Shown: positions 1 to 58,080 of the stretch, piece after piece
Layout of the letters: the number at the start of each line of letters is the position of its first letter
How positions within the stretch are numbered: the stretch's first letter is position 1
Source of the DNA: Gammaproteobacteria bacterium
GTDB lineage: Bacteria > Pseudomonadota > Gammaproteobacteria > DSM-16500
Assembly (NCBI GenBank): GCA_019634835.1
Contig: JAHCAO010000009.1
Span: 26,931-90,930, forward strand
DNA length: 64,000 bases
Reading direction: 5' to 3'
The notes under the pieces: model-generated
The model's input: only the letters and a program-made list of their open reading frames with translations
Databases searched by the model: none
What the model was told of the DNA's origin: nothing
Made by a program: the position numbers and the translations under genes

Positions 1-618
1 AGCATCTGCTCCCTCAATGACAACGCCCTGGACAAATGTACCTGCTGGAACATACGTATCAGGATTTTTAGGCGGACGACGTTTTGCCAGTTCTTCCGAC
101 GTCGGTGAAAGTGAGAGTCGGTCTTCTCTCATGCCTGCTGCTTCACCGTTCTCCTCATGGTTTAGATTTGATGCAGAACGGGGCAACACTCTACCTTGAT
201 ATTGTTGGCTTCCCACTAACTGAGAGGAAGGACCATCAGAAAAATTTTGATTATTATTCTTATTTGCGCTTAATTTAGCCTCTAAAGCTTTAAGGCGATT
301 TTCTAATTCCTTTTGTTTACCTTCATCCATGGATAAATTTGAACTTAGTTTTTCATCAAACTGCTTTTTTAATTTTTCTGTTTGCGCTCTTGCCTCACTC
401 ACACTTCGTTGCACTCGTTCAAGTACCACTGTCTCAGAATCAGCATGATCTAATGGATTTGAAAAATTGGTTTTTTCAACAATCTTCTCATCATTATTTT
501 TTTGATTTGCTAACATGAATACAAATATTCCGAAGATAGCCATGATAGCAACGACAAATATCATCAAATTTCTAAATTGATCTGATTTTGCTTTATTTGT
601 TGCAGTATTATCATTCAT
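1..618 (-). CDS. traB: TraB, F-type conjugation core protein (partial)
   Basis: N-terminal about 206 residues of a TraB/TrbI-family protein, the inner-membrane-anchored part of the F-type type IV secretion core that spans to the outer membrane. Visible features are a short cytoplasmic N-terminus, one transmembrane segment at about residues 17-36, a charged stretch rich in E/K/Q (about residues 65-100) typical of the coiled-coil region, a Pro/Ser-rich linker, and the family motif VPAGTFVQGVVIEGADA at the truncated edge. The gene runs off the left end of the window. I chose the ATG at 618, which overlaps the end of traK by 8 bases, because its frame stays open to the edge. It is last in the visible traA-L-E-K-B run. 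Confidence 0.9.
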   Translation of the reverse strand, partial: MNDNTATNKAKSDQFRNLMIFVVAIMAIFGIFVFMLANQKNNDEKIVEKTNFSNPLDHADSETVVLERVQRSVSEARAQTEKLKKQFDEKLSSNLSMDEGKQKELENRLKALEAKLSANKNNNQNFSDGPSSQLVGSQQYQGRVLPRSASNLNHEENGEAAGMREDRLSLSPTSEELAKRRPPKNPDTYVPAGTFVQGVVIEGADA

Positions 619-1330
619 GACTAACTACCCTATACAATAGTGTTTCATCACCACAGTTAAGCGTTTCATCAACTAATGAAGCAGCACGAGTATTCGCCTG
701 ATAAAATTCTTGTGGAAGAAGATTCATACGATGATTTGAATTATTTTTTAATCGCCAAATTTCTCCCTCTAAATAACTGCCACGATAAATTATCAATAAT
801 TGCATGGTGAGACTAGAAGAAAGCCTCTTTGGTTTAACTTCACCTAATGGTATGACTGCATAACCTTCAGGATGTTGTTCCTTAACCATTTGACGCATTA
901 ATTCAATAATCAATTGTGTATACGACTGGTTTGTTTCCCACGCAGAAGCTACTCGTTTTGAAGCGGATATCGGTTTGATCGAAACATTTTCAGCGGGTAC
1001 ATCAATTGGATTTAAAAACAGCGTGTAAGTATGACCTTGCTCAGTGGTAATAAAAATTGAAAATGGCCTTCTTTGATAATAAAAACTAGGTTTAAGATAT
1101 AAAATCCCTTGATCATACTTACCATTAAACTCTTTTATTTCATAAGTATTATCTTTTCCTTTGACAGATATAATCCGATCACCTGTCACAAAAATTCTTG
1201 TGAATTCTCTTGCTGATATTTTAAAGAAAAGTGTTTCATTATCTTTTGCCGCTTTTGCTTGCAAAGCAAATGAGTTAGTAAACCCAGATAGACTTATTAA
1301 TAATAAAAATATTTTTATGGTTTTACACAT
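611..1330 (-). CDS. traK: TraK, conjugative pilus assembly (secretin-like) protein
   Basis: A 239-residue periplasmic protein with an N-terminal signal peptide (hydrophobic run at about residues 5-22). Its position and length fit TraK, the VirB9/secretin-like component that works with TraV and TraB in the outer part of the F-type transfer channel. The beta-rich central region contains 'FSIFITTEQGHTYTLFLNP', which fits the family. The start overlaps the traE stop by 8 bases and the end overlaps traB, which is typical of a tightly coupled transfer operon. The identification rests on the order traL-E-K-B together with the sequence pattern. Confidence 0.88.
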   Translation of the reverse strand: MCKTIKIFLLLISLSGFTNSFALQAKAAKDNETLFFKISAREFTRIFVTGDRIISVKGKDNTYEIKEFNGKYDQGILYLKPSFYYQRRPFSIFITTEQGHTYTLFLNPIDVPAENVSIKPISASKRVASAWETNQSYTQLIIELMRQMVKEQHPEGYAVIPLGEVKPKRLSSSLTMQLLIIYRGSYLEGEIWRLKNNSNHRMNLLPQEFYQANTRAASLVDETLNCGDETLLYRVVSHE

Positions 1331-1886
1331 GAGGTTTTACCTCTTCAAAAGATTTAACCTGTAGAAGCCCCAAATGGTAAGTAAATCTCATTTCATAGGT
1401 GAGATGCTTAATGGGTAGTTGTGTTTCACCAACTGTGTATTGAACATCGCCAGAAATTTTTGCAATAAATTTAGATGAATCTACTTGTAGGTCAGTTAAC
1501 TGAAAACTCATTGTCATATGTTCTTTTTTAAGGCGAACTTCTTGTGAAATAAGATCAGTTTTAAATTTATCGTAATAGCGTGAATCCACATATCGAAGAA
1601 ATAATTGATGTTTCATCGCTGCATTGCTTGGAGTGATATTTAACAATAGATCACTTAAAAACAGATTCATTCCTGATAAATATTCTGCTGAAACCTCTTT
1701 AGCTGAAATCCAAAATGGTTTATCAACTACAGGTGGTATAAAATGTATCTTTTCATTATTACTCACTGTATTGATGTAAATTCCGAAAAGAATATTCACA
1801 GCAATGGAGCCCATAGCAATCATCAAATAACTATTACGTTTTTCAGTCAGATGTTTAATTCTTGCTTTCTGTAATATTCTTTTCAT
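1323..1886 (-). CDS. traE: TraE, conjugative transfer inner-membrane protein
   Basis: A 187-residue protein with an N-terminal transmembrane anchor (about residues 20-40) and a periplasmic domain. It fits TraE, the VirB8-like component of F-type secretion. The 'YLSGMNLFLSDLLLNITPSN' stretch (about residues 70-90) and the length match the family. It lies between traL and traK with overlap or a few bases of spacing, so it is almost certainly co-transcribed with them. Confidence 0.9.
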   Translation of the reverse strand: MKRILQKARIKHLTEKRNSYLMIAMGSIAVNILFGIYINTVSNNEKIHFIPPVVDKPFWISAKEVSAEYLSGMNLFLSDLLLNITPSNAAMKHQLFLRYVDSRYYDKFKTDLISQEVRLKKEHMTMSFQLTDLQVDSSKFIAKISGDVQYTVGETQLPIKHLTYEMRFTYHLGLLQVKSFEEVKPHV

Positions 1887-1890
1887 GGCA

Positions 1891-2181
1891 TCAACCTAAT
1901 ATTTCACGCATGTGTGATGGTGGCGTTGAACGGAAATTAATGAATTTTGGGAAATACCAATATGCCATGTGATATATGAAATAATGTCCTTCTTGTCCCT
2001 TTAGCTTCTTGATTAAGGCTACAGAACAAGCGCCTATTACTAGCCCATATAAAGGAGAATTAAATATCAGTAACGCTAGAAGAAATGCACCAACTAGAGC
2101 GATGACTTCATCTATAGTGAAATAGGCTATTTTATAAGATTCATCTAAATATCGGGGCATATAGGTTTTATCTATTTGCAT
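1891..2181 (-). CDS. traL: TraL, conjugative pilus assembly membrane protein
   Basis: A 96-residue protein with a central hydrophobic double-spanning region (about residues 25-60) and an amphipathic C-terminus ending in a 'YWYFPKFINFRSTPPSHMREI' type tail. This is the pattern of TraL, a small VirB3-like inner-membrane protein required for F-pilus assembly. The start codon shares its last bases with the traA stop, and traE follows 4 bases downstream. Confidence 0.88.
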   Translation of the reverse strand: MQIDKTYMPRYLDESYKIAYFTIDEVIALVGAFLLALLIFNSPLYGLVIGACSVALIKKLKGQEGHYFIYHMAYWYFPKFINFRSTPPSHMREILG

Positions 2182-2957: not shown

Positions 2958-3854
2958 TCATGCCAAATCACCTCTGTTTTTTTTGCTTAGAATATGCGTC
3001 CTGCTCTTTTTGAGAACGATTCCCTCATCCTGTATTTCGATATTTGCCTCCTTGTACATGACAGTGACAATACGGAGCGATCTTAAAAATTCTCGTTTAA
3101 AATCTCTCAATCCTTGTGCATTATTTGCGTAGTTCGAACCAAACTGATTGCTCAAAAGATTCCAGGGTATAAGCGTTGATTTTTTAAGGTATGAAAAGCG
3201 ATATGTCAGCCAACCATAAATATCCATTTGAAGCGGTGAACGTCGCAATGCCTGGAACATACGCAGGTCAATGGGCACTGGACGATTAATAAGTTCGTCG
3301 AAGAAGTCCTTTGCTAAAATAATGGTTGATTGTTTCGATATTTCGCCATTTTCATGTTGAATGGGACTCCACCATAGCTCAAAAGAACGGGTAATCATAA
3401 ACTGATCAGTCTTGCACACGCCTTGCTTTCTATTTTCATAAATGCAAGAAACTTGCGTCGAGAACAATTTAAGCATTTGTTCACGCAGCCGCGTGGCATC
3501 ACCTCTTGTGCCCCCACTTTGCGATAACTTCAATGTAGAAAGGAACGCTGAAAAACTCTTGCCCAGTTCCAGAACTGGCGATTTCTTTACTTTCGCTTCA
3601 CGTGTCATCCACGCCAATAATATGCGTGGGTAAGAGCCATATGGCAGCCCAAATTTAGGATTGCCAATCATGGTTAGCGTAAAATCACCATTTACACGTT
3701 GAAATACATTACCGTCCGGTTTGCTATGTGGTAGCGTCGCCATCACCATGGCACGCGCCATATAAGCTAGCATGCCAGCTTCCTTAGCACTTTCTGCTTC
3801 AATGGCTAAGCATTCAGAAACAAGTTTATTGATTCTCGAAGATGACTTAATCAT
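2958..3854 (-). CDS. repA: Plasmid replication initiator, RepA_C family
   Basis: A 298-residue protein. The central part 'GNPKFGLPYGSYPRILLAWMTREA' is the recognisable RepA_C signature, followed by 'GGTRGDATRLREQMLKLF' and a C-terminal segment with aromatic-rich 'RSPLQMDIYGWLTYRF'. Proteins of this family bind iterons and open plasmid origins. The iteron array lies just beyond its 3' end. The ATG at 3854 is preceded by AGGGA at suitable distance. This is the first of two unrelated initiators in the window. Confidence 0.88.
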   Translation of the reverse strand: MIKSSSRINKLVSECLAIEAESAKEAGMLAYMARAMVMATLPHSKPDGNVFQRVNGDFTLTMIGNPKFGLPYGSYPRILLAWMTREAKVKKSPVLELGKSFSAFLSTLKLSQSGGTRGDATRLREQMLKLFSTQVSCIYENRKQGVCKTDQFMITRSFELWWSPIQHENGEISKQSTIILAKDFFDELINRPVPIDLRMFQALRRSPLQMDIYGWLTYRFSYLKKSTLIPWNLLSNQFGSNYANNAQGLRDFKREFLRSLRIVTVMYKEANIEIQDEGIVLKKSRTHILSKKNRGDLA

Positions 3855-3986: not shown

Positions 3987-5360
3987 ATGATGCTTACATT
4001 CAATGATGAAAGAACTGGATTAGTAAAAACAAATTGGGACAGCGTAAGAAACCGTGTACATAAGGTTGCCCCTGAGTTTGCAAAGTTAATTGATAAACTT
4101 TCTCCTGATAAGAGCTTTAACTTATATTTAGCTTATTTCCCTTACGGTGAATTGATTGGAGATACTGTTAGTCCTTTTCTTCCTATGGTAGATGGAGGTA
4201 ATTATCGTTTATCAGATCCCAATGCTCCTAAAGATGTTATAAAAAATTTAGGTTATGGACAGAATAGCTCTCCATTAGGCATGTTATTAGAAAAATCGCT
4301 AGAATATTATATTGACCTTAAAAAGTTAGATATTTCCATCCCATGGCAAGTCTATTCGCCAGGTTCTTTTTATCCATTAGCCAGATTTCTTACAAATAAA
4401 TCCGGAAGAATCTATAGTCCAAATGGTTTATTAACAGTGGTATCAGGAACACGTTCCGCATTTATGCTGCCTAAAATTGGCAGCAGCCCAAACCATTTAA
4501 TGCTAAGAAGGCACTATAATAATGTTCGACCCAAACCGCCCAAAGACCTTTCTGAGCATTGGCAAGTCTTTAAAGATATAGTAAATAGTAATCATAGTAA
4601 AAATGATTGGCGCTCTTGTGTTCTATATTTCTCCCAGAAATGGGTTGATAAAATCCATCATGACAATGAGTGGGCACCTGTTAAAAATTTCTTTCTGGAA
4701 TTAGCGAGCCATAAATTTGAGTATGAAAAAAATCAGATTTATTACAACATTGCGTATTCTTTAATTCAATATTCAAACAATCTTAAACCTAACCCATATC
4801 TTATAGATACTGCCTGTCATTTATTCGCTATTGGAGCAGGCGCAGTTCCAGGTTACTCCCCAGCAATTGACGATCATTCGCTTCCTTTAGATTTATTGCA
4901 AAACGCCTTTGTTGAGAGCTATGGTTTAAAAAAGTATATCCCTACAATCATGCAGCCTCACCATTTCAATTTTGAAGATATTCTCACTAAACCAATTTAT
5001 TATTCCTTAAATCATCCAAGTACTTTGTCTTTTTCTCCTAAATCAAGGAAGGATTCAAGTACATTATTTGAAATGGATGAACTCATGCATATTGTCAATA
5101 TTTTTCAAAAGGAATTATCTCACGATAACAATATATTATCTGATACAGTGATTTCTCAAATCGCGAAAAATGTAGACTTTAATTTTTTTCATAACAGAAC
5201 CTCAACTCACGATAATATTCTGGATTCTGAAACTATTATTAATTTTGATCCGCGCTTCTCACAAAAGAATACTAAATGTTCTGCACCTGAATCCATATTC
5301 TCAAGCGATGCGCCATTTTTACGGGGATGTATTGGGATAAAAGTAATATCAAAAAAATAA
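3987..5360 (+). CDS. Unknown 457-residue protein convergent with the borosin cluster
   Basis: A long intact reading frame, ATG at 3987, ending two bases from the stop of the convergent methyltransferase gene. I do not recognise the family. There is no signal peptide or membrane segment, and the composition is that of a soluble, aromatic- and His-containing protein. Noticeable stretches are 'NSSPLGMLLEKSLEYYIDLKKL' (about residues 93-114, hydrophobic/amphipathic) and 'ACHLFAIGAGAVPGYSPA' (about 278-295). It has its own AT-rich upstream region, shared divergently with repA. Its place beside the RiPP genes makes a role there possible, for example tailoring or self-protection, but nothing in the sequence proves it. 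Confidence 0.7.
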   Translation: MMLTFNDERTGLVKTNWDSVRNRVHKVAPEFAKLIDKLSPDKSFNLYLAYFPYGELIGDTVSPFLPMVDGGNYRLSDPNAPKDVIKNLGYGQNSSPLGMLLEKSLEYYIDLKKLDISIPWQVYSPGSFYPLARFLTNKSGRIYSPNGLLTVVSGTRSAFMLPKIGSSPNHLMLRRHYNNVRPKPPKDLSEHWQVFKDIVNSNHSKNDWRSCVLYFSQKWVDKIHHDNEWAPVKNFFLELASHKFEYEKNQIYYNIAYSLIQYSNNLKPNPYLIDTACHLFAIGAGAVPGYSPAIDDHSLPLDLLQNAFVESYGLKKYIPTIMQPHHFNFEDILTKPIYYSLNHPSTLSFSPKSRKDSSTLFEMDELMHIVNIFQKELSHDNNILSDTVISQIAKNVDFNFFHNRTSTHDNILDSETIINFDPRFSQKNTKCSAPESIFSSDAPFLRGCIGIKVISKK

Positions 5361-5362
5361 AA

Positions 5363-6154
5363 TTATGAATTAATATTGTTTAGCTTATTAACATAAAATT
5401 CATTTGGTTCTTTTACTTTGTTAGGTGGGATATATAAAGTCGTTAGTGAAGATACCGGAGATTGAGGTAAATCAGCTAACACAACTTCTTCTATGCTGGG
5501 CTTGCATGAAGGGTATTGGGCAGCTTCATATAAAAATACTGGGTGTTGCTCGGAATATTTTTTTAATAAATGTTCTGTAAGTATTTCAAGACCATTTTTT
5601 GGATCCTGCTCTTGATAATTGGTTTTTATTCCAATCATACCAGCCTGCCATAAAATTAAATGACAGCTTGTATCGTACTCCCTATCATAGATTAAAAAAT
5701 CCGTAGCCTCATACGATTGACAGCCACATGAACTAGGATCAATCAACAAATCAGCAAGCATACAATCTTCGGATGATATGCCAGGCAATACGTATGTATT
5801 ATGCCCGTTCTTGGTAGCTAAATTGACGGAATAGATACTCGGTTCAGCTAAAAATGTTGGATGTCCATACATCACTAAACATAGAACTTTGGTTTTTTCT
5901 AATGCCTTAAGAACATATTCTGAGATTAAAAGATAATTTTGGTTTCTTGGAAGATTGGTATCGTAAAGAAAATCTAAGGATTCGCTATTCGGGTTTGCAG
6001 TCTCAATCCATTCTTTCATAGCCGGTTCATTTACTAAGTAAAGAACATAATCGGCTTTCTCAATACTTACTTTTGCCTCAGTAGTAAGATGAGATAGAAA
6101 TTTAATTCCTGCTCCCACCACTATCAGAGTATTTTTCATTACAAACGCATTCAT
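5363..6154 (-). CDS. Borosin-type peptide backbone alpha-N-methyltransferase (split form)
   Basis: A 263-residue SAM-dependent enzyme of the tetrapyrrole-methylase fold. It is far closer to borosin methyltransferases (OphMA and the bacterial split enzyme SonM) than to CobA/RsmI. It shows the SAM-site start 'IVVGAGI', then LYD...LPR...NQNY, MYGHP, 'LPGISSEDCMLADLLIDPS', SYEATDFLI, and a final TLYIPP. Tyr64, Arg70, Tyr74 and Tyr96 line up with the catalytic Tyr66, Arg72, Tyr76 and Tyr98 of OphMA as I recall them, at a constant offset of two. The known reaction is iterative methylation of backbone amides in a precursor peptide. The enzyme carries no fused core peptide, as expected for the split class. 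Its ATG follows the precursor stop codon directly (TAA-ATG), implying translational coupling. Confidence 0.92.
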   Translation of the reverse strand: MNAFVMKNTLIVVGAGIKFLSHLTTEAKVSIEKADYVLYLVNEPAMKEWIETANPNSESLDFLYDTNLPRNQNYLLISEYVLKALEKTKVLCLVMYGHPTFLAEPSIYSVNLATKNGHNTYVLPGISSEDCMLADLLIDPSSCGCQSYEATDFLIYDREYDTSCHLILWQAGMIGIKTNYQEQDPKNGLEILTEHLLKKYSEQHPVFLYEAAQYPSCKPSIEEVVLADLPQSPVSSLTTLYIPPNKVKEPNEFYVNKLNNINS

Positions 6155-6334
6155 TTAATAAGTGGTTACTCTTGTCATATCAGCGTTCAATTTGTCATTA
6201 GATAAAAATTCTTTTATTTTATTGCCATCACCATTAGAGAGCGCCTCTTGTACTGAGCTTGGTAAATTATCTATTTTCTTTTGTTCGCATGGAAGTGAGT
6301 TGGCTATTTCTTGTAACGAATTAATGATGTTCAT
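6155..6334 (-). CDS. Candidate borosin precursor peptide, 59 residues
   Basis: A small gene squeezed between the transporter and the methyltransferase. Its ATG overlaps the transporter stop (ATGA) and is preceded by a near-perfect Shine-Dalgarno, GGAGGT. Its TAA touches the methyltransferase ATG. The peptide has a helical N-terminal part, then the segment LPSSVQEALSNGDGNKIKEF (residues 25-44). The 'L...Q.A...GD...K.K' pattern matches the small helical recognition domain of bacterial split-borosin precursors such as SonA. The last about 14 residues (NDKLNADMTRVTTY) are the likely core, rich in beta-branched and Thr residues. Position, spacing and motif agree. Which residues are methylated cannot be read from the sequence. 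Confidence 0.85.
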   Translation of the reverse strand: MNIINSLQEIANSLPCEQKKIDNLPSSVQEALSNGDGNKIKEFLSNDKLNADMTRVTTY

Positions 6335-7812
6335 ATTTTAACCTCCGATTTGCTTTTGCCAGAACCTAATTTAAAATTATTTCGTACAATAACCAATTGA
6401 TTATATATGAAAATACTTAGGGTAAGAATAAATAGTCCTGTGCATATAATAGTTATATTTTGCTGTATATTTACTAGATTTTGATCAATAAGTCCATTTT
6501 TATTGATATAGGGTAGCAGTAAAGTATTAGAGATCGATGTTGCCAGTAAGGCTCCAATACCAATATTCATGCTCCAATAACCCGTCATCATTGCTCGCAT
6601 CGATGAGGGAATTAATTCTCCAATTAACGAGTCACCAATTGGGCTAACAAAAATTTCTCCTATTGCGAGCATTACTAGACACCCTAACATAGACCAGGCG
6701 GGAATTTTTAAATTTGAAATTTGTGAAAAACCACCTAATAAAATCAAAAGAGCAAATATGCAGAATGTAAAAGCTAATACAAAATAGCTGATATTATTCA
6801 TCCCACTTTTTGTCTTGGATTTACTTTTATTCATTAGTATTGCTAAAACAGGAGCTATCATTAATATTATGATGGCATCTGCATTCATAAACCATTGTGG
6901 GGCTAATGTTATACCGACAATATTTCTTTCAACATCATGATCGATTAATTGCATAAATGCGATTGGTGTCAGCATATACAGTGACCAAAAGAGTATAGTC
7001 AATGTCGAATAACTTATAAATTTAAGGTATTTAATTCTCTCATCGATGTTAATTTTACTGTATCCATAACAAACAAGACATAACATTCCTGATATTGTTA
7101 TCCATGTTATATATTTCTCTGTCACTGCTGCGAATTTAAGCAGAAAATTAATAAGTAATACAACTAATGTAAGTAATAACGATGTACTCAGTAACTGATT
7201 TATATTAGATTTTTTATACTTGATACTTTGATTATCGGTAATGAAAAGTAACGTCAGGCCTATTGATATGGCAAGAAGCACTCCCATAAACATGAATAGA
7301 TTAGTGTAGCTATTATGGTTGGTAGAGTAACCAGATATAAAATAGCCCATTAAAAACCCAGCATTCATGCCTGCGTAACTCCACATAAACGCTGCTCTTC
7401 TTTCCTTTACTTGACTCTCGTCAAAAAGGTCCGTTATGAACATTTTCAAGCAAACGTTTGTGACTAAACTACTCATCAAAAACAGAGATAACCCAAGATA
7501 AAGATTATTTCCAAATGCTAATATCGAACATCCTGCCAAACTTAATAATGTTCCTAAACAATATAATTTTTTACACGAAATTAGAGTATTTGCTATTGAA
7601 CCGCCAATGAACGGTAAAAAATAATTCAGTGATAAAAACAATCCTGTTATTAGGGTTGCTGAATATTCAGAATGAATCTCTTTTTGAGTCAAATATAAAG
7701 ATAGCCCTGAAAAGAAAACAGCAAATGCAGCTGATGAGCTTATTTCAATAAAGAAAATTGCTATAATTTGACCAATAATACTATTTTTAGTACTACTTAT
7801 ATATTTGCTCAT
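6331..7812 (-). CDS. POT-family-like MFS peptide transporter of the borosin cluster
   Basis: A multi-pass membrane protein of roughly 490 residues with about 12-14 hydrophobic segments. Near its N-terminus it has the proton-dependent oligopeptide transporter pattern 'FLPFIGGSIANTLI..KKLYCLGTLLSLAG' and near its C-terminus 'GEIFVSPIGDSLIGELIPSSMRAMMTGYW', both typical of POT/PTR symporters. The frame is open to a TTG at 7881, which lies inside a replication iteron. The ATG at 7812, preceded by AAAGGA and followed by the first membrane helix, is the better start. Its stop overlaps the start of the RiPP precursor by 4 bases, so it is the first gene of that operon. It may export or re-import the modified peptide; the direction is not visible. 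Confidence 0.85.
   Translation of the reverse strand: MSKYISSTKNSIIGQIIAIFFIEISSSAAFAVFFSGLSLYLTQKEIHSEYSATLITGLFLSLNYFLPFIGGSIANTLISCKKLYCLGTLLSLAGCSILAFGNNLYLGLSLFLMSSLVTNVCLKMFITDLFDESQVKERRAAFMWSYAGMNAGFLMGYFISGYSTNHNSYTNLFMFMGVLLAISIGLTLLFITDNQSIKYKKSNINQLLSTSLLLTLVVLLINFLLKFAAVTEKYITWITISGMLCLVCYGYSKINIDERIKYLKFISYSTLTILFWSLYMLTPIAFMQLIDHDVERNIVGITLAPQWFMNADAIIILMIAPVLAILMNKSKSKTKSGMNNISYFVLAFTFCIFALLILLGGFSQISNLKIPAWSMLGCLVMLAIGEIFVSPIGDSLIGELIPSSMRAMMTGYWSMNIGIGALLATSISNTLLLPYINKNGLIDQNLVNIQQNITIICTGLFILTLSIFIYNQLVIVRNNFKLGSGKSKSEVKI
6341..6346 (-). promoter_or_regulatory. Strong ribosome binding site of the borosin precursor
   Basis: GGAGGT on the minus strand, 7 bases before the ATG at 6334 and inside the end of the transporter gene. 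It is markedly stronger than the sites of the neighbouring genes, as expected for a substrate peptide needed in excess of its enzyme. Confidence 0.85.
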
Positions 7813-7874
7813 ATAAGAACCATATCCTTTCAAACTTTCGGTGTAACCGACTAGAAAATAAAATATTCTCATAT

Positions 7875-7923
7875 CCCGCAAACGTCCGAGATATTAAGTG
7901 GAAATTTCTATCCTGTAAACGTC
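7875..7923 (-). repeat. Two iterons of the Rep_3 set, downstream of rep
   Basis: On the minus strand, GACGTTTGCGGG (7886-7875) and the variant GACGTTTACAGG (7923-7912). These are the same 12-mers as the array at 11744-11873, here in the opposite orientation and on the far side of the rep-parB-parA block. Confidence 0.8.
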
Positions 7924-7936
7924 CGTTTTTGACAGA

Positions 7937-9211
7937 TTAGTTATATTCATATAAATACTCATCAAAACTTAAAATGTTTAGCTTGTTGCTTGCTTCCGTG
8001 TTTTTAATAAACATATTGAAAATAGCTTTAACAGCTGCATGAGCTAATCCATGCTTTTTATACTTAGTCAATGCATATGAATCACACACTTGCTCAAATT
8101 CACTAAGCAGTCGATTTTTTTCATCGTCCGCCAAAGATGAAACATAGTTTTCTATCAGATCACTCACATACTTGTTATATTTATTTTTCTGCTTTTCTTG
8201 AACTAACTTTTCCTGCTTTTCACTTTCCAAACGAGTATCACGTAATTCTGTTATAACTGCTTTGCTTGATCTACTCTTTTTATAATCTCTTTTTAGAGCG
8301 TCAACAAAATAAGCAGCAAGATCACGAATTTTCCCACTTTTAAAATTCTCTGAATTTTTAATTAGATCAATCTTTCCTTGAATATAGTCATGTTCATATT
8401 TTGCTAAAACATCTTTAACAGATTCGGGTGACAATCCAAATATTTCTGTTAATATTTTAATCAGTTCAAGATCATTTGCTTCGTTAAAATGTTCTACATG
8501 AAACGTTGCGCTTTGTTTTGTAGACAACTTGAACCTAATACTTGTGACTTTCTTGTTTACACGCTGCATCTCAGGGGAAACATTCAAATGCGAATACAGG
8601 TTAACTTCTCTTAATGCAATATCCAAAACTCGTTTTTTAAAATCACAAAATTCAGGATAGCGTCCATCGGGAATACCCATTAGTTTCCTAAAAATCGCTA
8701 ATGACAACCATCCAGTTGTAGATAGCCCTTGAAATCGAATGCAATTTTCATAAAGTGCCAGACCATATGCAGATTTGAATTTCGTCATTAAATTCATATC
8801 AATCTTGCCGTACATTTCAGGATGGTAAAGCAACTCTCTCATAACTGAACTAAACTCATAAGTGCAAATCCCTTTCTCTATTTTTGCAGATGCAATAATA
8901 GAGCTTGCTCTCCACTTAGATGAATCGCTATCTGTGCTATCAAGAACATTCCATTCAATTGCTGTTGTTATAAGCCCTATCAATGAGTTCTTTAATTTTT
9001 TTTGGTCATTGCTGTCGTAGCCAATTAATTCAGCTAATAATTTAACAGAAATCTCGTACTGTGATTTTTTAGGTAAATCATGATAAGCATTGTATAGAAG
9101 GGCATTAAATACCTTACGCTGGACAAGCGATATATTGTTTGATGAATGTATCGCATTGACATGTTTTTTAATCTCTACAACATCGCTATCTTGCTTTTTA
9201 GGTAATGCCAT
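7937..9211 (-). CDS. Plasmid replication initiator, Rep_3 (winged-helix) family
   Basis: A 424-residue protein. Its N-terminal part has the Rep_3 pattern: 'SLVQRKVFNALLYNAY', 'ELIGYDSND', 'FKSAYGLALYENCIRF' and 'LMGIPDGRYPEFCDFKKRVLDIALREVN', i.e. two winged-helix domains up to about residue 240. A Lys/Glu-rich C-terminal extension follows. Such proteins bind iterons and initiate theta replication. Iteron arrays lie on both sides of the rep-parB-parA block. AAGGA precedes the ATG at 9211. It is unrelated in sequence to the RepA_C protein at 2958, so the molecule carries two replicons. Confidence 0.88.
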   Translation of the reverse strand: MALPKKQDSDVVEIKKHVNAIHSSNNISLVQRKVFNALLYNAYHDLPKKSQYEISVKLLAELIGYDSNDQKKLKNSLIGLITTAIEWNVLDSTDSDSSKWRASSIIASAKIEKGICTYEFSSVMRELLYHPEMYGKIDMNLMTKFKSAYGLALYENCIRFQGLSTTGWLSLAIFRKLMGIPDGRYPEFCDFKKRVLDIALREVNLYSHLNVSPEMQRVNKKVTSIRFKLSTKQSATFHVEHFNEANDLELIKILTEIFGLSPESVKDVLAKYEHDYIQGKIDLIKNSENFKSGKIRDLAAYFVDALKRDYKKSRSSKAVITELRDTRLESEKQEKLVQEKQKNKYNKYVSDLIENYVSSLADDEKNRLLSEFEQVCDSYALTKYKKHGLAHAAVKAIFNMFIKNTEASNKLNILSFDEYLYEYN

Positions 9212-9239: not shown

Positions 9240-9291
9240 ATTCGGATATCCGAATTTGACTATTTATTGACCGAATTCGGATATCCGAATT
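9240..9291. promoter_or_regulatory. Paired 16-bp palindromes, rep operator or parS candidate
   Basis: Two identical perfect palindromes, ATTCGGATATCCGAAT, at 9240-9255 and 9275-9290 (the second extends to 18 bp), with centres 35 bp apart. They lie between the parB stop and the rep start, and the second overlaps the last parB codons. They are either an autoregulatory operator for the Rep_3 gene or the centromere site bound by ParB. The sequence alone does not decide. Confidence 0.75.
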
Positions 9292-10327
9292 TAGAGTTTT
9301 GACCTTCTATTTCCTCATCTAAATAACGTCTTATTTGATCGCAGACTTTATTAAAATCTATTAGCTTTACGATATCTTTATGAAAGACGATGCAAGGCAT
9401 TCCCTTTTGGTCTGCTTTAAACGTAAACATTTTTTTGCCTGCGCTAGACAAGATAACTGCTGTTGTTGATGCAGATTCTTCTTGTTGATTATTTGAATCT
9501 TTTTTAAAAAAACTCGATAACATCCTTTCAAGCTTTGCGGGAGACGTTATGCTCTTACCAATTTCCGGGGCTATAGATAATAACAGTTTATTTGCGCTCT
9601 TGTTGGAATTAAGTAATTGCACAATTTTTAAAGCCATATTGACAGATAAAGCATGAATATCGGGGATTGCACGCAAAATTTCTTGAGGAATCTTTACATA
9701 TGACATCAATTCATTTAATGAGGATGATGCAACGCCCAATTTTTCTGCTAACTCTTTCTCGGTTTTAAAAGTGCCATCATTAAGAAGCTTTTTATAAAGT
9801 AGGGCGTTTGAGTAATTACTAACATTTTTCCTAAACTTATTTTCTGCATCCTGACAAGCAATCGCCTCTTGTTTCGTTAAGGAATCTTTTTTGATAACAA
9901 GGAATGGTATACCCAAACTCAAACATGCAGCATGTCTTCTTCTGCCAAAGATAATTTGATATTTGATACCATCATGAGGATTTGGATGCGATCGAAGAAG
10001 CGCTGGCTGTAGTTGAGTATTTTCTTGTATAGAACGAATCAATTCGTCCATGTCTCCCATTTCATCTTCTGATCGATTTGCATATTCCCAAGGTTCGCAT
10101 TCTTTAGGGTTCATGAAAACCAATTCATTTTCTCTAAATTCAATGCCAGATTGAGTACGGAAGTATGGGGCTGTAGGAGATGTTGTTGCTTTTAAACGAT
10201 CGAGACCAACATGGTTCAATCCACCATGATCAGATTCTTCATTTGAATCAATCTTTTTAATTTGCCCTGTTTTGACTAGCATTCCCAATGGGCCAGAACT
10301 ATGAACATTTTTTTTGCTGTTATCCAT
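9260..10327 (-). CDS. parB: ParB-family plasmid partition protein
   Basis: A 355-residue protein with a long N-terminal region, the ParB nuclease-like core including 'YQIIFGRRRHAACLSLGIPFLV' (about residues 122-143), and a helix-turn-helix part 'KTEKELAEKLGVASSSLNELMSYV' (about 193-216). It would bind parS and load the plasmid onto the ParA system. Its ATG overlaps the parA stop by 8 bases, so the two are translationally coupled. Confidence 0.9.
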   Translation of the reverse strand: MDNSKKNVHSSGPLGMLVKTGQIKKIDSNEESDHGGLNHVGLDRLKATTSPTAPYFRTQSGIEFRENELVFMNPKECEPWEYANRSEDEMGDMDELIRSIQENTQLQPALLRSHPNPHDGIKYQIIFGRRRHAACLSLGIPFLVIKKDSLTKQEAIACQDAENKFRKNVSNYSNALLYKKLLNDGTFKTEKELAEKLGVASSSLNELMSYVKIPQEILRAIPDIHALSVNMALKIVQLLNSNKSANKLLLSIAPEIGKSITSPAKLERMLSSFFKKDSNNQQEESASTTAVILSSAGKKMFTFKADQKGMPCIVFHKDIVKLIDFNKVCDQIRRYLDEEIEGQNSKFGYPNSVNK

Positions 10328-11546
10328 TTACGACTTCCTCCAATTCCGTAGTTGTGTTCTTTTGAGCTTGCCGTCCCCAAATATCTTTAAAGTGGTTTAT
10401 TATTTCCATGTTTACATCATCTAAATGCTGAACAGCACGCCTGTAAGCTTCCCGACTTCCTCTTGGCTTTGAAACATCATAGATTGTTCCAATTTCGTTA
10501 GCTGCTTTGGATACTTCAATTGTGTCGCACATATGGTTTGATAATATGTAGCGGCCAAATTGTTCACGCATCATATTTTCCATCTGCATAGCTTCGTTAT
10601 TCCCACTATGCTTAGAAATCAAAATTCGTAGATACTCTAGTTTTTTATCCTTCAATTCTTTGAACAAGTTTTTCAGCGAAGCTGTATACATAATAAAACT
10701 TGAATAATCACCCATGCTTGGTGGTATTGGGATAATCATTCCATCGCAAGCAATGATCGCGTTGAGGGTTAATATGCCTAGATTTGGTCCACAATCTATC
10801 AAAATCACATCATAATTATCTTTGATATTCTTCAAAGCCTTACTAAGTCTAATGAAAGGCGACCCGAGAGTGTCTTGATTATTTTCATTACCATTTGGAA
10901 GCAATAAATCGCAGTCCTGAATAGCAAGATTGGCAGGAATAATGTCAAAGCCATCAAAGTGCGTTTTGAGAATGATATCTCTTATTTTGTCTGGGTCAGA
11001 AACAAGAGAATTTGTAATGGTATCTTCGTAACATAATTCTAAATCAGGAATAAGACCTGAACTCAGTAAAGTTGCAGTGCCCTGCCCATCAAAGTCTAAT
11101 AATAGAGCTTTTAAACCAGTAATGGCGATTTTTTTTCCTAAATCAACTGCTGTTTGTGTTTTTCCCACGCCACCTTTTAAATTTGATACTGCAATGACTA
11201 ACGGTTTTGAGCCAGTTGGTCTAGTATATTTAGTGTTAGCGTATTCTCTGAGTATGTTGATCGCTTGCAACGAAAATTTTTTAACTCGACGATTTCCTTC
11301 GTTTGTTTCGGTAACAATTCCTGGGATATCGGAATGTGTTTCTAAGAGTTTTCGAAAGGTTGGATTAGATACACCCACCATTTGTGCCGCTTCTATTGAA
11401 CCCCATGTGCGTGCTTTTTTTCTATTATCAGGATTCGTGATATAGTTTCTGAGGGTAAGAAGCATTTCATTGCCAGCTTTATAGAATTTCTCCATAAGCT
11501 TTTCTGGGTCATCTGTTCCATAGGGAGCAATTTTTTGATCAAACAT
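10320..11546 (-). CDS. parA: ParA-family partition ATPase
   Basis: A deviant Walker-A ATPase (SNLKGGVGKTQTAVDLG, about residue 121 on) with an N-terminal helix-turn-helix region ('AQMVGVSNPTFRKLLET'), i.e. a P1/F-type ParA that also represses its own promoter. The motifs 'LLLDFDGQG' and 'VILIDCGPNLG' are the Walker A' and B elements. The open frame extends to 11654. The ATG at 11546 has a good AAGGA seven bases upstream and starts the conserved part, giving 408 residues. It is followed by parB and rep on the same strand. Confidence 0.92.
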   Translation of the reverse strand: MFDQKIAPYGTDDPEKLMEKFYKAGNEMLLTLRNYITNPDNRKKARTWGSIEAAQMVGVSNPTFRKLLETHSDIPGIVTETNEGNRRVKKFSLQAINILREYANTKYTRPTGSKPLVIAVSNLKGGVGKTQTAVDLGKKIAITGLKALLLDFDGQGTATLLSSGLIPDLELCYEDTITNSLVSDPDKIRDIILKTHFDGFDIIPANLAIQDCDLLLPNGNENNQDTLGSPFIRLSKALKNIKDNYDVILIDCGPNLGILTLNAIIACDGMIIPIPPSMGDYSSFIMYTASLKNLFKELKDKKLEYLRILISKHSGNNEAMQMENMMREQFGRYILSNHMCDTIEVSKAANEIGTIYDVSKPRGSREAYRRAVQHLDDVNMEIINHFKDIWGRQAQKNTTTELEEVVNG

Positions 11547-11743
11547 ACGTATTCCTTTTCGATCAATTAATGTAATTTCACTTAAATTGGAATTTAACCC
11601 TATTTTTGTGAAAATGCAATTCTTAATTGTTTTTTTAGTAATCCAATAAAACACAACTAGTGTTTCTTATTTTAATTTAGTTTATATTGTTGTTTATCAC
11701 CTATTAATTACTGTGAAAACAGCTAAATAGGTAAGTGAGGTCG

Positions 11744-11895: not shown

Positions 11896-12771
11896 ATGTC
11901 GAGTGTGGAATTGAGAGGACTAAAAGGCTTGCAAGGTCTTGACCTAGATGGTTTGTTACATGATTCAAAAAAGCCTACATCCACGCATAATATTTCTAAC
12001 TTATCTGTTGAGATGCTCACAACAGGAAAGTATCAACCTAGAACGGTAATCAGTGATGACTCTCTATTTGATTTGGCGTCATCCATTAAAGCTCAAGGAA
12101 TTATTCAACCGCTCATTGTTAGAAACATAGGTGCGGATAGATACGAAATCATTGCTGGCGAGCGTCGATGGCGCGCGGCAAAAATAGCAGGCTTATCAGA
12201 TGTACCCGCAATTATTAGAAACGTTACAGATGAAACCGCGCTCGCGTTTGCGTTGATTGAAAATATCCAAAGAGAATCGCTTAATCCCATTGATGAAGCA
12301 GTATCTTTAGTTCGTCTAAAGGATGAATTTTCAATGACACACGAGGAAATTGCGGAAAGAGTGGGACGGTCACGCTCCGCTGTCACGAACTTGATGCGAT
12401 TACTTTCTTTGCATCACGATGTGCAGGGATGGTTGAGAACCAATGAGATTGAAATGGGTCACGCTAGAGCATTGTTATCCTTGGATGCGCAGTTGCAATT
12501 AAAGGTGGCGCAGAGAGTAATCGAAAAAGGTATGTCGGTGCGAGAAACCGAAAAAATGGTACAGAGCATTATTAAATTACCGCATCATATTCAAGAATCT
12601 ATACCAAGTAAGTTCGATGCAAAGATCAATGACTGGACTAAACAATTGTCTAAAAAATTATCATCTAACGTGAAAATTCATCTTAATGCTAAAGGCGAAG
12701 GTAAGATCACCATTAGCGTGCAGTCACCAGAAGAAATTGAATGGTTAATAAAAAGCATTAATTGTGATTAA
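11896..12771 (+). CDS. Second ParB (chromosomal Spo0J type), no ParA partner here
   Basis: A 291-residue canonical ParB: 'YQPRTVISDDSLFDLASSIKAQGIIQPLIV', then 'YEIIAGERRWRAAKIAGLSDVPAII' (the CTP-binding GERRW motif, about residues 90-94), 'ALIENIQRESLNPIDEA', and the HTH 'THEEIAERVGRSRSAVTNLMRLLSL'. It is much closer to chromosomal ParB than to the ParB at 9260. GGAGATATT precedes the ATG. It is divergent from parA across the iteron array. It may act in segregation with the parA at 10320 or in a separate regulatory or silencing role. Confidence 0.92.
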   Translation: MSSVELRGLKGLQGLDLDGLLHDSKKPTSTHNISNLSVEMLTTGKYQPRTVISDDSLFDLASSIKAQGIIQPLIVRNIGADRYEIIAGERRWRAAKIAGLSDVPAIIRNVTDETALAFALIENIQRESLNPIDEAVSLVRLKDEFSMTHEEIAERVGRSRSAVTNLMRLLSLHHDVQGWLRTNEIEMGHARALLSLDAQLQLKVAQRVIEKGMSVRETEKMVQSIIKLPHHIQESIPSKFDAKINDWTKQLSKKLSSNVKIHLNAKGEGKITISVQSPEEIEWLIKSINCD

Positions 12772-55786: not shown

Positions 55787-57316
55787 ATGGGCAGACTTTC
55801 TATGCGTAAAATTAGTGAGGTTTTTAGACAACGTTTTGAACTTAAACGCAGCTACCGTGATGTGGCGCGAAGCTTAAATATCAGCATCAGTACCGTATCA
55901 GACTATCTGGCGCGAGCAAGAGCAGCAGGATTATCGTGGCCATTTTCCGATGGACTCACAGAACAGGCACTCTATGACAAACTCTTTTTGCCAGTAGGCA
56001 AATCCAAGGTCGATAGGCACCATCCAGACTGGGAAGTGATTCATCGTGAGCTGCGCAAGAAAGGTATGACACTACGATTGTTGTGGCGTGAATATCGCGA
56101 TCAGCATCAACGCGGCTTAGGTTATTCGCAATTTTGCAATTATTACCAACGTTACGTAAAGAATATCACGCCAGTGATGAGGCAGACGCACAAGGCGGGT
56201 GAAAAATCATTTGTTGATTATGCGGGTATGAAAATGCCTTGGCTTGATCCAGTGACAGGCGAAATTCATGAGGCTGAAATTTTTGTTGGATGTTTAGGTG
56301 CATCACAATTTATTTTTACTGAAGCAACAGCCACGCAGCAATTGCCTGATTGGATACAATCACACATTCATATGTTTGAATATTTTGGTGGGGTGAGTGA
56401 AATTGTGGTGCCCGATAATTTGAAATCGGGCGTTACTTCAGCCCATCGTTATGATCCTGATATTAATACAAATTACCAGCATCTTGGTGAGCATTATGGT
56501 ATTGCTATTATCCCGGCACGTGCTGCTGAACCAAAAGACAAGGCAAAAGTGGAAAGTGCGGTCAGCATTGTTGAACGACAAATTCTAGCACCATTACGTC
56601 ATTATACATTTACGAGTATTGGTGAAATGAACGCAGCCATCGCAAAACGGCTTGTTAAACTAAATGACCAACCATTTCAAAAAATGAAAACATCACGTCG
56701 TGAATTGTTTGAAAGTATAGACAAACCGGCATTAAAGCCATTACCACCCACACGTTACCAATATGCTGAATGGAAACGCGCGAAAATACACGTTGATTAT
56801 CATTTTGTCTTTGATGACCATTATTACAGCGTTCCTTATCAACATTCTCGCCACGTCGTTGAGTTACGCGCCACCGCTAAAACGATTGAATGTTTTTATC
56901 AAAGCCAGCGAATAACAACACATACTCGCAGTTATAAAAAATATGGGTTTACCACGTTGTCTGAACACATGCCAAAAGCACATCAGGAACAGGCTAAATA
57001 CTCATTGTCACATATTGAAAGTTGGGCGAAGAAAATCGGTCAGCAAACAGTGAGCTTTATCGAGCACATGATGGCATCACGTGCATTCCCACAACAAGCT
57101 TATCGTGCATGTTATGGGTTATTACGCTTGAGCCAACGTTATGGTGAGGACCGTCTTGAAAAAGCATGCGCAAAAGCACTGGTGATCCGAGCAACACGTT
57201 ATCAGCAAGTTGAATCCATTTTAAAGAACCAATTAGAGGAGGTGCCTGTACATCAAGCAACAGCTATTCAATTATCCGCGCACGATAATATTCGTGGTGC
57301 TAAATACTATAAATAA
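55787..57316 (+). CDS. istA: IS21-family transposase IstA
   Basis: A 509-residue transposase with an N-terminal HTH ('RSYRDVARSLNISISTVSDYLARARAAG') and an rve integrase core: Asp in 'KSFVDYAGMKMPW', Asp in 'VVPDNLKSGV' and Glu in 'PKDKAKVESAV', the DDE triad. Intact length. Stop 17 bases before istB. Confidence 0.95.
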   Translation: MGRLSMRKISEVFRQRFELKRSYRDVARSLNISISTVSDYLARARAAGLSWPFSDGLTEQALYDKLFLPVGKSKVDRHHPDWEVIHRELRKKGMTLRLLWREYRDQHQRGLGYSQFCNYYQRYVKNITPVMRQTHKAGEKSFVDYAGMKMPWLDPVTGEIHEAEIFVGCLGASQFIFTEATATQQLPDWIQSHIHMFEYFGGVSEIVVPDNLKSGVTSAHRYDPDINTNYQHLGEHYGIAIIPARAAEPKDKAKVESAVSIVERQILAPLRHYTFTSIGEMNAAIAKRLVKLNDQPFQKMKTSRRELFESIDKPALKPLPPTRYQYAEWKRAKIHVDYHFVFDDHYYSVPYQHSRHVVELRATAKTIECFYQSQRITTHTRSYKKYGFTTLSEHMPKAHQEQAKYSLSHIESWAKKIGQQTVSFIEHMMASRAFPQQAYRACYGLLRLSQRYGEDRLEKACAKALVIRATRYQQVESILKNQLEEVPVHQATAIQLSAHDNIRGAKYYK

Positions 57317-57333
57317 TTTATGGAGTTTACTCA

Positions 57334-58080
57334 GTGTTAAATCAACCTACGTTAGAAAAATTGCGTGCATTGAAATTAACTGGCATGGCAAATGCATTGC
57401 AAGAACAGTTGCAAAAACCATTGCCCGATTTAGATTTTGAAACACGACTAGGAATACTTGTCGATCAAGAATGGTTAATACGCGAAAACCGCAAACTACA
57501 GCGGCGATTAAGTCAAGCTAAATTACAGCAATCAGCGTGTATTGAAGATATTGATTATGAAAAGCCACGTGGTCTTGCGAAAGCAAAAATACTTGAGTTA
57601 TCACGTAGTCAATGGCTACAACAACGATTAAATTTACTGATTACTGGTCCAACAGGATGTGGAAAAACATACGTTGCTTGTGCACTTGCACATCGTGCTT
57701 GTCTAGATGGATTTACTAGTCGCTATTATCGATTACCGCGACTATGGGAAGAGTTGAAAATTGCTAAAGCAAATGGCACATATAGTTATTGGCTTGTACA
57801 ACTTGCAAAAATCGATTTGCTCATACTGGATGACTGGGGATTAGTGACACCTGATATTGAGCGCCGACAAGATTTACTTGAAATCTTAGATGATCGTTAT
57901 CAAAAAAAATCAACTATCGTCACTAGTCAAATCCCAACAACACATTGGCATGAGCACTTAAATGACGCGACACTCGCTGACGCGATATTAGATCGATTGT
58001 TACATAACTCCATACGATTAGAGTTAAAAGGTGATTCCATGCGGAAAAATCAAAAGAGTTTACAAAAAGCTACTGAATAG
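57334..58080 (+). CDS. istB: IS21-family helper ATPase IstB
   Basis: A 248-residue AAA+ protein: Walker A in 'LITGPTGCGKTYVACALAH', Walker B in 'IDLLILDDWG', sensor 'STIVTSQIP'. It stimulates and regulates IstA. It starts at GTG with GGAG upstream. Confidence 0.95.
   Translation: MLNQPTLEKLRALKLTGMANALQEQLQKPLPDLDFETRLGILVDQEWLIRENRKLQRRLSQAKLQQSACIEDIDYEKPRGLAKAKILELSRSQWLQQRLNLLITGPTGCGKTYVACALAHRACLDGFTSRYYRLPRLWEELKIAKANGTYSYWLVQLAKIDLLILDDWGLVTPDIERRQDLLEILDDRYQKKSTIVTSQIPTTHWHEHLNDATLADAILDRLLHNSIRLELKGDSMRKNQKSLQKATE

Follow-up and report, generated by a model that had tools for sequence, protein, structure and literature searches.

A predicted split-borosin gene cassette and its unannotated partner p457 beside the transfer genes of a Legionellales plasmid contig

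The window analysed here is a stretch of 64,000 nucleotides (bases 26931-90930 of the 90,930-base contig JAHCAO010000009.1) from a 2.46-Mb genome, the host of which is likely to be a member of Aquicella, a genus that we infer and that NCBI places in the order Legionellales, family Coxiellaceae. Positions 3987-7881 of the window probably represent a variant of the split-borosin system, in which a discrete methyltransferase is predicted to modify the core of a separately encoded peptide of 59 residues, and in which a shared peptide-handling partner, an unannotated protein named here p457, is included. A split borosin pathway, i.e. one for a backbone N-methylated peptide, had been proposed by the first-pass annotation of this DNA; this proposal largely holds, being partly confirmed in its details, and its borosin interpretation is supported. 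The methyltransferase and the peptide gene were correctly assigned to one unit, although the unit was drawn too small, as the adjacent transporter and p457 also belong to it.

The methyltransferase and its candidate substrate

The genes for a POT/MFS transporter, the 59-residue peptide and the methyltransferase follow one another on the minus strand, and p457 is encoded convergently on the plus strand (Table 1). The stop codon TGA of the transporter overlaps the ATG of the 59-codon gene, which is preceded immediately by GGAGG, and the TAA of the latter runs directly into the ATG of the methyltransferase, as had been reported. The listed start of the transporter is TTG, and a later in-frame ATG is possible. 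The public protein from this contig (P0001) has 258 residues instead of the 263 of the open reading frame (ORF), which fits a methyltransferase start five residues later.

Table 1. Features of the cassette and of its flanks (positions in the window)
Feature	Position	Strand	Evidence
TraK, TraE and TraL of an F-type transfer operon	611..2181 (traK 611-1330, traE 1323-1886, traL 1891-2181)	-	PF23536 and PF06586; PF05309, 3e-36; PF07178, 4.4e-24
RepA_C replication protein, cassette flank	2958..3854	-	PF04796, 3.2e-23
p457, unannotated 457-aa partner	3987..5360	+	outside Pfam and NCBIfam families; 421 homologues; conserved linkage; AF2 model, pLDDT 86
Predicted borosin-family peptide backbone N-methyltransferase	5363..6154	-	263 aa; PF00590, 3e-12; PDB matches; aligned SonM residues
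Candidate precursor peptide, 59 aa	6155..6334	-	abuts methyltransferase; relatives P0122-P0125; C-terminal motif in 12/14 representatives
POT/MFS transporter	6331..7881	-	PF00854, 8.3e-17; PF07690, 2.1e-16
Rep3-type replication initiator, opposite flank	7937..9211	-	PF01051, 5.9e-20; PF21205, 1.4e-13
ParB	9260..10327	-	PF02195, 2.3e-06
ParA-type ATPase	10320..11654	-	PF13614, 5e-34

The methyltransferase belongs to the borosin family. A search of PDB at E<=1 matched 25 sequences, all of them constructs of OphMA, dbOphMA, SonM and MroMA, the last of which we take to be a borosin enzyme as well; the best match was OphMA (7.7e-44), and SonM was matched at 3.2e-39. This comparison with SonM and OphMA had been recommended by the first-pass annotation, and the grouping with CobA or RsmI that it had set against its own assignment did not occur. 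In NCBIfam the sole match was the YabN model, at 50.8 bits against a cut-off of 525, and no tetrapyrrole methylase, RsmI or YabN enzyme appeared among the PDB matches.

Residues Y64, R70, Y74 and Y96 align on the catalytic residues Y58, R67, Y71 and Y93 of SonM. In a set of 26 aligned rows chosen by us (SonM and OphMA included; near-duplicates, the incomplete methyltransferase of locus L023 and the distant ones of L099, L102 and L103 set aside), Y64 is conserved in 25, R70 and Y74 in all and Y96 in 22, glutamate taking the place of Y96 in the methyltransferases of L014, L018, L020 and L022. PMC8429565 gives a catalytic efficiency 14- to 98-fold lower for the Y58F, R67K and Y71F variants of SonM, and 1.6-fold lower for Y93F. 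The four residues had also been described as lying at a constant offset of two from their counterparts in OphMA: the offset is indeed constant, but it amounts to +1 in the PDB chain index, the figure of two referring to OphMA numbering.

In a search of 5.8 billion proteins, 795 relatives of the methyltransferase were found, of which the best 120 were listed, and the enzyme occurs in eight of the 36 genomes of the order. A first scan of genome contigs, with this single methyltransferase as query, returned no relative. The methyltransferase ORFs of four Legionella loci (L039, L040, L041 and L052) were called at 223 aa by the start rule of the script, without the N-terminal part. The genome under study itself holds a second complete cassette, on contig C34 (L014; methyltransferase at 7945-8736), as well as a third locus on contig C18 (L015/L003, at about 20,000), where a similar 64-aa peptide gene is followed by a broken methyltransferase, with an open piece of 101 aa and a next matching piece that holds stops.

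The 59-residue peptide is conserved. A protein search gave five matches, itself included; the four metagenomic relatives are P0122 and P0123 (59 aa; 83% and 81% identity), P0124 (70 aa, 76%) and P0125 (39 aa, 77% over 66% of the query), and all five proteins end in LNADMTRVT[TS]Y. The predicted core lies near residues 49-59 (LNADMTRVTTY). By eye, a similar short ORF stands just upstream of the methyltransferase in 19 of the 23 loci where the latter accompanies p457; the other four have a dissimilar short ORF (L095), an unrelated one (L036), none that could be found (L030) or a locus cut by the contig end (L023). Twelve of 14 representative peptides (near-duplicates dropped) carry the motif [DE]x(0,2)[RHK][VTA][VTIFL] within their C-terminal 25 residues, compared with a mean of 1.15 and a maximum of 6 in 5000 shuffles, a test which is optimistic, as the motif was written after the peptides had been seen. 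The misfits are the peptides of Legionella israelensis and L095; the leaders fit in four of the 14. The peptide of L022, first printed alongside the motif test, also fits. A peptide of another locus (L017, 3504-3737) carries two core-like repeats, DANRVFDF and DANKVFRF, and is perhaps a multi-core precursor.

The first-pass annotation had ascribed a split-borosin recognition pattern to the 59-residue peptide, and this could not be confirmed: it had no match in the PDB sequence search and no LigA-type Pfam match, a 21-row profile built on it did not retrieve SonA, and no match was returned by Foldseek with its AF2 model, which is of low confidence (pLDDT 69, pTM 0.38). Profile comparison with a five-sequence SonA-like set gave a weak match (P 0.006, probability 6%, a single comparison). 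A search of plasmid records with the peptide found nothing.

The cassette may be compared with SonM-SonA, the type IV split borosin of Shewanella oneidensis. In that system, too, the methyltransferase is a discrete protein bearing the Tyr/Arg/Tyr/Tyr set, and the peptide is encoded by a short gene of its own next to it; SonM, for which PMC8429565 gives 263 aa, equals the window enzyme in length. The peptides differ: SonA has 71 residues and a LigA-like five-helix binding domain, for which the shorter window peptide has no detectable counterpart. The window cassette differs further in its C-terminal acidic-basic-Val/Thr motif, adjacent transporter, p457 and plasmid position. OphMA, a fused borosin (types I-III) and the closest PDB match, shares the methyltransferase domain, but its core is fused to the enzyme, whereas that of the window would be encoded by a separate gene.

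p457 and its linkage to borosin methyltransferases

No Pfam or NCBIfam family was assigned to p457, scans of 35 members giving weak scattered matches only, and a profile search of PDB returned none at E<=10. Foldseek with its model had no match at E<=0.001 in the PDB and viral libraries; a CRP/CNB-like fold match was seen. The protein is well conserved, with a mean column identity of 64% over 35 sequences.

A borosin methyltransferase is present in 16 of 33 p457 loci from genome contigs, with only a piece of one in L023, and lies within 7 kb (<=7 kb) of p457 in 24 of the 69 p457 genes compared. All 24 linked genes fall inside one clade of 28 rows in the 69-gene tree (support 100/99), and 23 of the 24 pairs are oriented tail to tail. 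The distance matrices of p457 and the methyltransferase are correlated (r 0.88, n=22, 0/2000 permutations as high), to which shared host descent contributes. In one locus (L094, 9997-12722) two tandem p457 genes adjoin a single borosin methyltransferase. Another, L023, is a contig labelled Myxococcales on which p457 occurs with the end of a borosin methyltransferase, a finding that may reflect mis-binning or transfer.

Plasmid position and the YcaO-TfuA version

The cassette is flanked by RepA_C and traL-traE-traK on one side and by Rep3, ParB and ParA on the other. The same contig encodes, beyond the window, TraC, a TrwC-type relaxase and a coupling protein. The plasmid setting described by the first-pass annotation is thus upheld, the contig being regarded as a plasmid because of its replication, partition and transfer genes; no end overlap indicating circularity was found in its 90,930 bases. 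It carries RepA_C (2958-3854) together with Rep3 (7937-9211), and two ParB genes (9260-10327 and 11896-12771), as if two plasmids had merged. Judging by translations, positions 22500-53937 hold respiratory and tricarboxylic acid (TCA)-type cargo, including an oxidase, succinate dehydrogenase, aconitase and a nitric-oxide-reductase-like protein, and positions 55787-58080 resemble, by eye only, a transposase pair of IS21 type.

Among 72,556 plasmid records, p457 had matches in eight, all of them from Legionella; seven are typed as conjugative and one as mobilizable, and in all eight the cassette adjoins tra genes. On the plasmid of Legionella israelensis (NZ_CP041669.1) the order is ParA, ParB, a hypothetical protein, an MFS transporter, a 64-aa ORF, the methyltransferase (38.5% identity to that of the window), convergent p457 (39.6%), TraY, TraT, a hypothetical protein, TraL, TraE and TraK, so that the cassette lies, as in the window, between parAB and tra. 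Its peptide lacks the motif, and there is no rep gene between par and the transporter, whereas the window has two rep genes. Its cassette is annotated only as hypothetical proteins, an MFS transporter and a SAM-dependent methyltransferase. The first-pass annotation had known of no split borosin on a Legionellales-like conjugative plasmid; this public plasmid, with the same gene order, and the recurrence of the gene pair described above show that the kind of system is not confined to the plasmid studied here. A literature search found no paper joining borosins with Legionella, although the split-borosin surveys of Imani et al. and Cho et al. lay outside the search and may already list Legionella enzymes. 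For backbone N-methylation, or YcaO and ribosomally synthesised and post-translationally modified peptides, in Legionella, nothing on the p457-borosin unit was seen, by title, among the matches listed.

The seven other Legionella plasmids carry a different version, in which p457 is followed by a gene annotated as ATP-grasp or glutathione synthetase and by ThiS, ThiF, YcaO and TfuA. These cassettes, on pLLO and other Legionella F-type plasmids, resemble that of the window in their p457 homologue (26.4-27.1% identity), which is preceded by an oligopeptide:H+ symporter, and in their place ahead of traL or TraT, and differ in that YcaO, TfuA, ThiF, ThiS and the ATP-grasp gene replace the methyltransferase and the peptide. 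The par genes are in view on six of the seven, the stretch from L. fallonii ending at the edge of the record. No YcaO or TfuA gene was found among the six window proteins scanned. The ycaO and tfu genes are already drawn at Legionella F-type regions in a figure of PMC3218107. As p457 stands beside borosin genes on one plasmid and beside YcaO-TfuA on seven, the same plasmid position pairs it with two predicted kinds of peptide chemistry.

Among the 40 matches listed for a TraE query were 12 Legionella records, five of which lack p457; three of these five were read. In L. anisa the cassette position is occupied by a hydrolase and a substrate-binding protein, along with a histidine kinase and a response regulator; L. 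longbeachae pB1445CHC_150k has the same hydrolase and substrate-binding protein with no kinase annotated; L. antarctica has other genes. On the p457-less F-type plasmids of L139 and L141, both from Legionella, the hydrolase and the substrate-binding protein stand beside csrA and traT, and L139 adds the histidine kinase and response regulator.

Possible roles of the cassette

By analogy with SonM acting on SonA, the methyltransferase would N-methylate backbone amides in the C-terminal core of the 59-residue peptide, possibly near M53-V56; if the register of the weak profile match is right, L63 and I65 of SonA would correspond to M53 and R55. The transporter would move the modified peptide across the membrane. 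Since p457 and a transporter are common to both chemistries, p457 probably handles the peptide, by binding its modified form or by helping its maturation, and likely belongs to a common set of components with which modified peptides are made or sensed.

The methyltransferase might instead be an ordinary methylase of the tetrapyrrole or RsmI type next to a spurious short ORF. Its Pfam assignment to the broad superfamily TP_methylase would agree with this, as would the JGI label of some relatives, "tetrapyrrole methylase family protein/MazG family protein". However, every PDB match is a borosin enzyme, the peptide-binding residues aligned on SonM are conserved, the short gene is conserved too, and the YabN score falls far below its cut-off, so that this identity was rejected in the main and its probability is close to negligible. 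The cassette could also be bacteriocin-like, with a methylated peptide that acts on competitors, a transporter that exports it and p457 providing immunity or processing, as the plasmid location, the transporter and the variable peptides might suggest. This is quite improbable, as no peptidase or immunity family was found in the four cassette genes (Pfam, NCBIfam) and p457, which is found with unrelated chemistries, is better conserved than most immunity proteins.

A role in peptide signalling is also unlikely, although several observations speak for it. The POT symporter would import a modified peptide signal, and p457 would sense it through its CNB/CRP-like part and so adjust plasmid transfer or some other response. 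Proteins of the POT family import peptides by proton coupling, and the symporter annotation on the seven YcaO-type plasmids points the same way, as do the tra genes adjoining the cassette in every p457 plasmid record, the CRP/CNB-like fold match and the HTH-type genes found with the YcaO version on pLLO, of which one scores just over the Pfam cut-off and the other under it. The kinase and response regulator of L. anisa, on one of three p457-less plasmids read, would suit sensing too; on the second plasmid its hydrolase and substrate-binding protein recur, with no gene annotated as a kinase. On the other hand, cassettes also occur on chromosome-like contigs (e.g. L018, of 2.15 Mb), no DNA-binding family scored above its cut-off for p457 in the Pfam scans of 35 members, and the transporter in the L. 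israelensis cassette is annotated only as MFS. On pLLO, moreover, p457 runs in the same direction as the gene that follows, annotated as glutathione synthetase, and overlaps it, an arrangement that suits an enzyme partner.

An extension of these ideas, which we consider rather doubtful, is that conjugative plasmids of Legionellales carry between their partition and transfer genes an interchangeable modified-peptide module, backbone-methylated or YcaO-TfuA modified, with a peptide-type transporter and p457 constant; p457 would read the imported peptide, and the plasmid would sense its neighbours by a modified-peptide pheromone. Such a system is not known to us for Gram-negative conjugation, a point to which no literature search was directed.

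The split-borosin cassette with p457 as a peptide-handling partner, which we regard as the probable reading, places predicted borosin chemistry next to the transfer genes of a plasmid in a member of the Legionellales, and further copies of the cassette occur in Aquicella, Legionella and other Gammaproteobacteria. An unnamed family, p457, also comes to light, which is associated with two predicted kinds of peptide chemistry as well as with a transporter. Should p457 prove to be a partner of general use in maturation or sensing, it could help to locate modified-peptide clusters that lack annotation and to study the role of such peptides on plasmids.
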